NCBI GenBank assembly: GCA_003223145.1
Contig: QHXY01000135.1
Location: 4,288-42,034 of the forward strand
DNA length: 37,747 nt
Source of the DNA: Acidobacteriota bacterium
GTDB lineage: Bacteria > Acidobacteriota > Polarisedimenticolia > Gp22-AA2
Direction of reading: 5' to 3'
The first letter of the stretch is position 1. Every line of letters starts with the position of its first letter. A program made the position numbers and the translations under genes. The notes below the pieces were generated by a model. The model was not told the DNA's origin. It made no database searches and saw only the letters and a program-made list of their open reading frames with translations. This document shows positions 26,125 through 29,101 of the stretch, piece after piece.

Positions 26125-27508
26125 GGGCGCACATCCTGCCGGGGGAGGGCGGGCGCGACGCGCCCCTCCCCGGACCACAGTCTCCGAGGACGGATTGAAT
26201 CGCAGCGCAGGACGCGCGGCCCGTCCGATCAGTGTGCCGGGGATCGCCACGCGAGCCCTGCGCTCCGGATATTACAGCGACGCGTACTTTCTCAACGCCT
26301 CGCGCATTCTCGCGGCCGCGGCGCGTACCGGAGAACGATTCGTCGGCCGGCCCCCGGCGGCCCATGCGGGCATCCGGCCTGTCGAGTCGTTCGTGCCCGG
26401 CGACGCCGAGGTCGAGATGCAGTTCTTCGCCCGGCGCGCGCCGCGTTTTGTCGCGGCGGGCATCGGACCGGCCCTCGGCATCCTCAGGGATGGCATTCGG
26501 GGAGGGCGGCGCGGCGCAGCACGCCTCCGGGTTCGTGCAGTCACGGAAGGGAGCCTTGCACGCCCGCTGGATCCGGTGCTGGTGGTGCGCGGCAGGTATC
26601 GCGATTTCGCGCACCTCGAAACCCCGGTTCTTGGCGTCCTGACGCGTTGCAGCCGGGTGGCCACGAACGTCTACGAGTCTCTCCTGGCCTCGCGCGGCAA
26701 GCCGATCCTGTTCTTCCCCGCCCGCTTCGATCTGCCGCACTGCCAGCCTCTGGACGGCTATGCGTACCGCGTGGCGCTGGCGACCTACGCGGCCGTCACG
26801 GGGATCCGCGTGCCGGCGCACGTCTCGACGGACGCGCAGGGCGCGCTCTGGGCGGAACGCGGCAGTGGGACCATGCCGCACGCCTTCATCCTGTGCTTCC
26901 TGGGGGATACGGCGGAGGCCGTGCTGGCCTTCTGCCGGCACGCGCCCCCCTCGGTGATGCGTGTCGCCCTCGTCGACACGACCAACGACTGCGTGGGGGA
27001 ATCGGTGCGCACGGCCCGCCGGCTGCTCGAAGAGCATCTCCGCCTGTTGCGCGCCGGTCGGTCCGCGGAGGCGGCGCGCTACGTCCTGCACGCTGTGCGG
27101 GTTGATACCGCGCAGGATCTGCGGGACAAGAGCGTTCCGGCGTCGCCCGACCCGCGTCTGGAGCGTGGCGTCACGCCGGTCCTGGCGAAGCTGGTGCGCG
27201 GCGCGCTGGACCAGGCGTCCCAGGGTATGGGTCTTTCAGGTCGCTGGCGGACGGCCGCCGATCGCTACGTTCGCGGCGTCCGGATCGTGGCGACCGGGGG
27301 TTTCGACCCCGGCAAGATCCGCTTGTTCGAAAAACGGCGGGCCCCGGTGGACGTCTACGGCGTCGGGTCGTTCTTGCTGCGCGGTGCGGCCAACGATTAC
27401 ACCGCGGACGTGGTGCGGGTTCGTGTCGGGGGTCGCTTTGTCACCATGGCGAAGACGGGCCGCCGCCCGCGTCGCAGCCACGAGCTGAGACCGGTACGGC
27501 TTTGCTGA
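26117..27508 (+). CDS. Nicotinate phosphoribosyltransferase, archaeal-type
   Basis: Forms nicotinate mononucleotide from nicotinate and PRPP for NAD salvage. Features shared with the archaeal-type enzymes (Thermoplasma type) are SGYYSDAYFLNASRIL near the N-terminus, VRGRYRDFAHLETPVLGVLTR, the GTMPHAFI loop, VDTTND, VRVDTAQDLRDKS, IVATGGFDPGKI and DVYGVGSFLL, ending in a short basic region with a terminal Cys (RPVRLC), as in that group. At up to 463 residues it is longer than the about 390 usual; the first about 40 residues are Arg/Pro-rich and may be untranslated, since an in-frame TTG at 26195 preceded by GAGGA gives a more typical N-terminus. The listed TTG overlaps the TPR gene by 8 nt. 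The adjacent Nudix gene fits an NAD-related pair. Confidence 0.85.
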   Translation: MAEGAHPAGGGRARRAPPRTTVSEDGLNRSAGRAARPISVPGIATRALRSGYYSDAYFLNASRILAAAARTGERFVGRPPAAHAGIRPVESFVPGDAEVEMQFFARRAPRFVAAGIGPALGILRDGIRGGRRGAARLRVRAVTEGSLARPLDPVLVVRGRYRDFAHLETPVLGVLTRCSRVATNVYESLLASRGKPILFFPARFDLPHCQPLDGYAYRVALATYAAVTGIRVPAHVSTDAQGALWAERGSGTMPHAFILCFLGDTAEAVLAFCRHAPPSVMRVALVDTTNDCVGESVRTARRLLEEHLRLLRAGRSAEAARYVLHAVRVDTAQDLRDKSVPASPDPRLERGVTPVLAKLVRGALDQASQGMGLSGRWRTAADRYVRGVRIVATGGFDPGKIRLFEKRRAPVDVYGVGSFLLRGAANDYTADVVRVRVGGRFVTMAKTGRRPRRSHELRPVRLC

Positions 27509-27531
27509 AGACGCTGAGAAAGGGACGCGGC

Positions 27532-28210
27532 ATGCAGCGAAGGTCGGGACGATCCCGTGCCACCGGGCGGCTCCTGAACGGCCCGGGCGGAGCGGCCGTC
27601 GTCCTCCGTCCCGCTCGCCCGGTCAGGGGGCTCCGCATCCTCCGCAAGCTGCCGTCTGGCGGGACGGGGTTCCTGACACTGGAACGGTTGCTTGCGAGGA
27701 ATCTGTATCATGACGGCAGGCGGTCACCGATCTACCGGTTCGAGGTTGTTCATCGTCGTGGGGTCGACGCGGTCGCAATCCTGCCTTTCTATTTCGATCC
27801 GCCGAGACGTCTGATGATCATCTGCAAGATCGGGTTCAGGCCCGGACTGTACACCCGCTCAAGACTGCACCCGCCCGTCCGGGATCGGCGCGTCTACAGG
27901 TCGGTGATCGAAGCGGTGGCGGGCAGTCTCGAGCCGGGCGACCGGGGTGAGGCCGGGATCAGCGCGCGGGCTCGGGCGGAGCTTCTCGAGGAAACCGGAT
28001 TGAGGCCTCTGGCCGCCGGAACGCTGCGCCTGGGAAGCGGCTTTTTTCCGTCGCACGGTCAGTCCACCGAAAAGGTCCACTTGCGCGCCTTCAGGGTCGA
28101 CCCTCCTCCTCATGTGTCGCCGTGGTCTCATCGAGGACCCGAAGGTCGAGATCGGTGTGACCCGATTGATGCGGGCCATCGGCCGCCGGCCTCGAATCGG
28201 CAGAACCTGA
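27532..28210 (+). pseudogene. Nudix hydrolase (ADP-ribose pyrophosphatase-like), frameshifted
   Basis: ATG 27532 has AAGGGA upstream and is preferred over the TTG at 27502. The N-terminal part (YRFEVVHRRGVDAVAILPF, then CKIGFRPGLYTRS) and the Nudix box region (EAVAGSLEPGD...ARAELLEETGL) resemble ADP-ribose/NDP-sugar pyrophosphatases, although the box has Ala where the first conserved Arg is expected and a few extra residues. After RAFRVDPP (about 28100) the first frame runs into low-quality sequence to 28239, whereas another frame gives a typical family C-terminus, CRRGLIEDPKVEIGVTRLM and AIGRRPRIGRT, ending at TGA 28208-28210. About 20 residues that should join the halves are missing. The gene is therefore interrupted by a deletion or by a sequence error. 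It follows the nicotinate phosphoribosyltransferase, consistent with NAD metabolism. Confidence 0.7.
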
Positions 28211-28749
28211 AATTGTGGCCGCCAGCGGACACGAAGTGACCACTTTTGACGCATGCGGCGTCAGGCCACTGCCGTTGCGTCATCATCTTTGACGCACGGT
28301 AAACTTCTGAAAACAAAAGACAACATTCATCCTGCGTCGGGCTGCGTCAAAATGCCCTAAGAAAACTGCCGAACAGCCCGCAGAATCTGCTGTTGAGCGC
28401 TGCATCGAAACTCTTTTAACTCGTTTCCTTAAAGCAATTTGGGTACGGAGATACGGTCGCGCGAGTAGTTCGTCAGGATAAAGGCACGATGTTTGCAAGA
28501 TACCTCAAATCGTTCATCGTCATAAACGGACTCCATGATAGGAAGCGAGATGCTGAAATCCGCAAGTCTCTCCGGCAGCCGGTGTCCCAATCCTGACTTT
28601 CCCTCCATCCCATTTTCCTTCCCCCCCTCGTTCGCAGATGGCAGAGAGATCGGCGACGCCGGCTGTCGGGGACTGGATTTGATCGGAGGGCACATCCTTG
28701 ATTTCGTGACGGAGCCGTTGGACCCTCGGGGTCTAGAGAGGAGCTTTCG
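28211..28749. other. Gene-free, lower-GC intergenic stretch
   Basis: About 540 bp without a convincing gene. Its G+C content is visibly lower (roughly half, by eye) than the flanking genes from about 28240 to 28560. It contains the TGACGCA heptamer cluster described separately, a small AAGTG-AC-CACTT palindrome (28234-28245) and the AGGAG ribosome site of the next gene at its right end. Two minus-strand ORFs across it (28429-29040 and 28473-28775) overlap the TPR gene or lack recognisable domains. I saw no tRNA or clear terminator. Confidence 0.6.
28244..28352. repeat. Cluster of TGACGCA/TGCGTCA heptamers (inverted repeats)
   Basis: Four complete heptamers lie within about 110 bp: TGACGCA at 28247-28253 and 28290-28296, TGCGTCA at 28276-28282 and 28343-28349. 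Hexamer versions are at 28258-28263 (GCGTCA) and 28333-28338 (TGCGTC). They form nested inverted repeats: TGACGC-5 nt-GCGTCA, TGCGTCA-7 nt-TGACGCA, and an outer 10-bp pair TTTTGACGCA (28244) / TGCGTCAAAA (28343). The function is unknown; operator-like sites or a decayed element are possible. Confidence 0.6.
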
Positions 28750-29052
28750 ATGCTGAAGGGCATGGGGACAACCAAGACCGTTTTCGACTTCGACCCATTG
28801 GGTGCGCTCGCCGGTGGTGCAGGCGGGGCGATCCTGTGGGCTCGTCAGGGAAGGATTTACGTCGATCGGGGTGACCTGGTCGGCGCCCTGCAGTCCTACC
28901 AGCGCTCTCTCGAAGCCGACATGGATTGCGTGGAGGCCTGGATCGGTCTTTCGGAGGTGTTCACGAAGATGCAGGACCGCCGGCGCGCGGAGAACTGTCT
29001 GGACGTGGCGCGCCGCATCCGCAGCATTTCCGCCCGCCACGCCACCGCCTGA
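28750..29052 (+). CDS. Small TPR protein
   Basis: A 100-residue protein with one clear TPR pair: GRIYVDRGDLVGALQSYQRSLEADMDCVEAWIGLSEVFTKMQDRRRAENCLDVARRI. The N-terminal part (TTKTVFDFDPLGALAGGAGGAILWA) has a Gly/Ala-rich, mildly hydrophobic stretch that is not a clear signal peptide. ATG with AGGAG 6 nt upstream. It stands alone between the lower-GC intergenic stretch and the promoter of the aldehyde dehydrogenase. I do not recognise a specific family or function. Confidence 0.7.
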   Translation: MLKGMGTTKTVFDFDPLGALAGGAGGAILWARQGRIYVDRGDLVGALQSYQRSLEADMDCVEAWIGLSEVFTKMQDRRRAENCLDVARRIRSISARHATA

Positions 29053-29072: not shown

Positions 29073-29101
29073 TTGACACCGTTTTAGGCGTCTGCTAGCA
29101 T
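29073..29101 (+). promoter_or_regulatory. Sigma70-type promoter of the aldehyde dehydrogenase gene
   Basis: A consensus TTGACA (29073-29078), a 17-nt spacer and TAGCAT (29096-29101) make the best-formed promoter in the window. Transcription would begin near 29108, leaving a leader of about 74 nt before the ATG at 29182. Confidence 0.75.

Follow-up and report, generated by a model that had tools for sequence, protein, structure and literature searches.

A putative sigma54 enhancer upstream of a conserved structured RNA in Acidobacteriota

In a 37,747-nt stretch of the draft genome, in 474 contigs, of a soil acidobacterium (hereafter the window), a cluster of TGACGCA heptamers is probably the upstream activating sequence (UAS, or enhancer) of a sigma54-dependent unit that makes a structured RNA and, in this genus, extends over a small ORF and a TPR gene as well. 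Judged by comparison of sequences, the heptamers look like a remote activator region that has been kept across a bacterial order, at a near-fixed distance in one family. A sequence-only reading of the same DNA had taken the cluster to be a multi-site operator or else the terminus of some small element in decay.

The heptamer cluster and its counterparts in relatives

Six TGACGCA sites are present within 103 bp, as had been reported: four exact copies at 28247 (+), 28276 (-), 28290 (+) and 28343 (-), and two one-mismatch copies at 28257 (-, GGCGTCA) and 28333 (-, TGCGTCG). The outer inverted pair is exact in both arms (TTTTGACGCA at 28244-28253 and TGCGTCAAAA at 28343-28352), and the gap is indeed low in GC (50% for the cluster, 49% for 28240-28548 and 68.5% for the window). 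The proposed helical phasing did not hold up: adjacent centre distances are 10, 19, 14, 43 and 10 bp, three of the five being near whole turns (random P about 0.08; P about 0.19 when all pairs are considered).

TGACGCA is the sole 7-mer in the window to reach at least four copies within 110 bp. From its 489 copies in 3.86 Mb, a Poisson estimate for this word alone, which was picked post hoc, puts the expected number of clusters at 2e-4 per genome. Since some equally clustered 7-mer was found in 12% of 60 dinucleotide shuffles of the window, the copy number by itself is modest evidence once the choice of word is allowed for. The word count therefore lends weak support to the earlier statement that the cluster is not due to chance, whereas conservation in relatives makes the case. 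Those shuffles, together with the inverted arrangement of the outer pair, are what could be said for a cluster arisen by chance, or for a small, decayed mobile element ending here; however, the block is single-copy in the genome and is conserved in place with its neighbours across a family, and we consider this explanation extremely improbable.

The earlier reading was to be refuted by a heptamer that was common and evenly scattered in the genome. It is common, and the heptamer as such is therefore not the recognised unit, but the longer 12-mer TGCGYCAAAAYG is nearly unique to the locus. It has one copy in its own genome, and across 12 genomes of the order it occurs at this locus only, bar one copy in coding-like sequence (L119). 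Thus, the putative activator site seems to be dedicated to one promoter. L119 was considered as a second target and rejected, as it is coding-like sequence without a sigma54 site.

The sites were compared among seven genomes from four genera of one Acidobacteriota family (f1), with distances given relative to the GGCA[C/T]G-N4-TTGC element. The core upstream activating site, TGCGTCGGGC-TGCGTCAAAATGCC (28333-28356, no strand assigned), contains GCGTCAAAA, which begins at -139; all seven genomes have GCGTCARAA followed by YGCC at -138 to -141 (G002 carries the variant CCGTCAAAA), and a counterpart, TGCGCCAAAATG, stands at the same locus in four genomes of a sister family (f2). The middle site, TGCGTCATCATCTTTGACGCA (28276-28296, no strand assigned), has a TGACG half at -193 that is conserved in the seven genomes, its counterpart being CTGAC[G/A] at -193 to -198 and the window version TTTGACGCA (TTGACG). 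An AAACAA block (28311-28316, + strand) lies at -171 to -174 in five of the seven. The outer site, TTTTGACGCATGCGGCGTCA (28244-28263, no strand assigned), is a TGAC-N9-GTCA inverted repeat about 240 bp upstream of the sigma54 -24 element and is genus-specific: four genomes of the genus have (C)CACTT[T/C]TGAC[G/A]CA..GTCA at -238/-224, and their aligned gaps share (C)CACTTTTGACGCA and GTCAG. Conservation in relatives had been named as the test of the earlier reading: four of the six heptamer positions are matched in place within the genus, and the copies near 28276 and 28333 are kept only in part or in another form.

Between the core site and the promoter lies a spacer (28357-28482, + strand) that is conserved in length and unconserved in sequence. 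Its 120-odd bases vary by only about 3 bp in f1, and its pairwise identity across the seven genomes is 0.28-0.32 (a part of it reaches 0.44 inside the genus; random 0.29 +/- 0.06), compared with 0.68 for the core site and 0.76 for the promoter. Such a pattern would be consistent with a DNA loop. The conserved sites at -240, -195 and -139 all fall within the approximate range used here to recognise a UAS, 80-250 bp ahead of the -24 element. The suggested multi-site operator is close to the mark, the sites being conserved non-coding regulatory DNA, but the activating enhancer of a sigma54 promoter some 130 bp further on fits better than a repressor operator at a promoter.

Instead of DNA sites, the outer pair and the inner palindromes might be RNA structure, belonging either to a second RNA or to the 3' end of the transcript from upstream. 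Indeed, TTTTGACGCA and TGCGTCAAAA could close a stem, and a GACGCGG..CCGCGTC hairpin is found in three relatives. In the relatives, however, both arms of the outer pair retain their sequence but are no longer complementary, covariation scores unfavourably (+0.39) with a compensatory change in one pair only, and no Rfam match was obtained for the cluster, making this possibility very unlikely.

The sigma54 promoter and its candidate activators

Downstream of the spacer, a sigma54-type -24/-12 promoter, GGCACGATGTTTGC, was found at 28483-28496 (+ strand). It has the GG-N10-GC form, and GGCA[C/T]G...TTGC is conserved in the seven f1 genomes; the motif is conserved in ten genomes overall, with a weaker -24 half in f2. 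GGCAYGN4TTGC occurs 16 times in its own genome, vs 5 times for the reversed control; therefore, chance is unlikely to have placed a match in every one of these gaps. The gene for sigma54, rpoN (PF04552, sigma54 DNA-binding domain), is encoded in G000, the window's own genome, and in five of six relatives, the exception being a 63% complete genome. More than 20 AAA+ domains of sigma54 activators (EBPs; PF00158 matches) are also encoded in the own genome.

Several observations count against the enhancer reading. The putative activator sites show less symmetry than is usual for EBP sites, and the arrangement is looser in the sister family. All four f2 genomes have GGACA-N3-TGCGCCAAAATG before the same aldehyde dehydrogenase gene, and in three of them GGCA..TTGCT follows 118, 128 and 136 bp after TGCGCCAAAATG (the fourth reads N there), but their -24 elements are weaker (GGCAGC, GGCAAA and GGCAGG) and the spacing varies by 18 bp. 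The sites might be bound by an ordinary, non-EBP regulator, a repressor or an activator, acting on a promoter inside the cluster, the sigma54 motif being incidental or separate. In its favour, the sites form 17-bp inverted repeats (TGAC/GTCA), TTTGACG looks like a -35 element, and no EBP was matched to the sites. Yet no -10 element was found at a conserved spacing, and a local operator would need neither a sigma54 motif in ten genomes, nor a constrained distance, nor an unconserved spacer. We therefore regard such a regulator as unlikely, although it is the foremost of the alternatives considered here.

The preferred reading, an enhancer of a sigma54 unit, would work as follows. A dimeric or oligomeric EBP, one of the 20-odd encoded, would occupy sites of the TTTTGACGCA/TGCGTCAAAA type near -240, -195 and -139; the DNA between these sites and the promoter would loop, and ATP hydrolysis would open the complex of RpoN and RNA polymerase at GGCACG-N4-TTGC. 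With the start expected about 12 nt after the GC, as at sigma54 promoters, the transcript would begin near 28508, carry a structured RNA with a long stem and a C-rich loop and, in the genus, run on through a 68-aa ORF into the TPR gene. In f2, the RNA lacks an accompanying TPR gene, and the aldehyde dehydrogenase gene that follows it has a sigma70-like promoter of its own.

Examination of other loci in the own genome revealed no site cluster upstream of its other strict sigma54-like sites (one isolated TGCGTCA was seen) and no clear cluster upstream of the EBP gene loci that were retrieved with autoregulation in mind (two isolated one-mismatch copies). Both results count against the enhancer reading, which thus has no regulon to back it.

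The structured RNA and the small reading frame

The core of the RNA (models R1/R2) spans about 108 nt at 28567-28674 (+ strand), where arms at 28571-28585 and 28656-28670 pair. It consists of a covarying stem of 13-15 bp that closes a C-rich loop (C-rich tract at about 28613-28629), and the stem arms CCGGCAGCCGG..CCGGCTGCCGG around this loop are common to f1 and f2; in f2, too, the RNA lies downstream of the activator site and a sigma54-like promoter. In the stem, 94-97% of cells are paired, vs 18-56% when the arms are slid (94% vs 22-56% on nine sequences), and the compensatory changes include G-C to A-U and U-A to C-G. The fold has z = -4.1 for the RNA core, and single sequences fold better than their shuffles (z -2.2 to -4.5).

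Covariance models R1/R2 match the locus in nine of the 12 order genomes, with E values of 1e-11 to 1e-24. The three genomes without a match are G010, which has Ns there, G003, which is 75% complete, and G006, in which the RNA has been lost from the locus though the activator site, promoter and TPR gene are kept. Across 396 genomes of the phylum, the models found the locus copies plus a second copy and nothing elsewhere; under stricter filters, none was detected in the 384 genomes outside the order. No credible Rfam match was obtained for the window, sister or paralogue loci. In G009 (f2), the RNA is followed by CGGGCG-T9, which resembles an intrinsic terminator; none was seen in the other copies, a further point against the preferred reading. 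Most likely, the RNA is a regulatory leader or a small RNA that acts through its C-rich loop; pairing of the loop with ribosome-binding sites is speculation.

The RNA lies inside a small ORF of 68 aa (28550-28756, + strand), the stop of which overlaps the start of the TPR gene (ATGCTGA). It received no NCBIfam name. The frame is kept in five genomes (four of the genus and G007), absent in G006 and not kept in G005, and differences in the 3' part favour third codon positions (G002 and G004, for instance, differ at 5 first, 2 second and 13 third positions). Given the kept frame and this bias, the downstream block might be nothing more than a small protein gene, with the stem a by-product of coding conservation. 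We consider this unlikely, for f2 and G005 keep the stem and C-rich loop without the protein, and the compensatory changes noted above likewise argue against it. Either the RNA gained a coding role in the f1 lineage, or f2 lost it. At this locus, an RNA stem shares its sequence with a reading frame in one lineage but does without the frame in another.

The organisation can be compared with several known systems. NtrC, PspF and ZraR are EBP types that act at enhancer-dependent sigma54 promoters, and the small RNAs Qrr and CrcZ are made under sigma54 with LuxO or CbrB. Like Qrr and CrcZ, the RNA described here would be a small RNA under sigma54 and an EBP; unlike them, it has no sequence or structural relation to these RNAs that we could find (no Rfam match). 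As in the enhancer-dependent promoter class generally (reviewed in PMC3162934), the -24/-12 element has the GG-N10-GC form and is accompanied by remote upstream sites, but the site here, TTTTGRCGCA, is not known for any EBP and appears to be confined to one promoter per genome. The closest parallel in layout is glmY of Escherichia coli, a small RNA with a sigma54 promoter, three upstream QseF sites (TGTN12ACA) and IHF (PMC6075780). Both have several activator sites (putative in our case) upstream of a sigma54 promoter making a structured RNA. They differ in the RNA and in the site sequence, the conserved sites here being TGAC-N9-GTCA and TGCGYCAAAA rather than TGTN12ACA; moreover, the present locus has no demonstrated IHF site and no linked two-component genes, and in this genus its predicted transcript also spans the small ORF and the TPR gene.

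A full-text literature search found no paper dedicated to sigma54 control in Acidobacteriota, a subject that appears almost unstudied. The locus offers a concrete, phylogenetically supported unit of enhancer, promoter and RNA, in which the enhancer seems to serve a single promoter in each genome; the uncatalogued RNA can be followed in transcriptomes.

Gene neighbourhood and a second RNA copy

The neighbourhood is conserved in the relatives: a quinolinate/nicotinate phosphoribosyltransferase-like gene, an unnamed gene, the gap, the TPR gene and the aldehyde dehydrogenase gene. The TPR gene encodes a small protein of 100 aa (28750-29052, + strand; TPR_2 match) and is the downstream gene of the unit in f1; the protein is encoded at the locus in all seven f1 genomes and was found nowhere in the four genomes of f2. 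A sigma70-like promoter, TTGACA-N17-TAGCA, was read by eye at 29073-29100, immediately ahead of the aldehyde dehydrogenase gene, as was TTGACA..GATAGG at the same place in f2. With a TTGACA-type promoter of its own just upstream, this gene is therefore probably separate from the sigma54 unit, and it was rejected as a sigma54 target.

Compared with G004 and further relatives, the upstream unnamed gene (27502-28239) has lost 80 bp near 28103 and is frameshifted there. Its ORF runs in a foreign frame to 28239, whereas the ancestral frame would stop at about 28212; the change could be real or an assembly fault.

A second, related RNA (RNA-b) was detected upstream of a gene for a PDZ-domain-like protein in the own genome, at L102 1500-1600 (G000:C151:27005-27102; a weak match, E 0.0015), and in two relatives, at L100 1500-1592 (G005) and on the minus strand at L099 1500-1591 (G006). 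It has a long stem, a C-rich loop and CAGTCGGC near the 3' arm, without a sigma54 site. A wider picture, which we rate as somewhat short of probable, is that of a new RNA family confined to the order, served by a dedicated single-promoter sigma54 enhancer; in one lineage the RNA would at the same time encode a small protein whose translation is coupled to that of the TPR protein, RNA-b would stand before the PDZ gene under another promoter, and the C-rich loop would act on ribosome-binding sites.

Three f2 loci (L082 at about 1859, L083 at about 2162 and L085 at about 2248 on its minus strand) share another conserved leader, ATAAAACAAACGAGATA, a short way ahead of where the aldehyde dehydrogenase gene starts.
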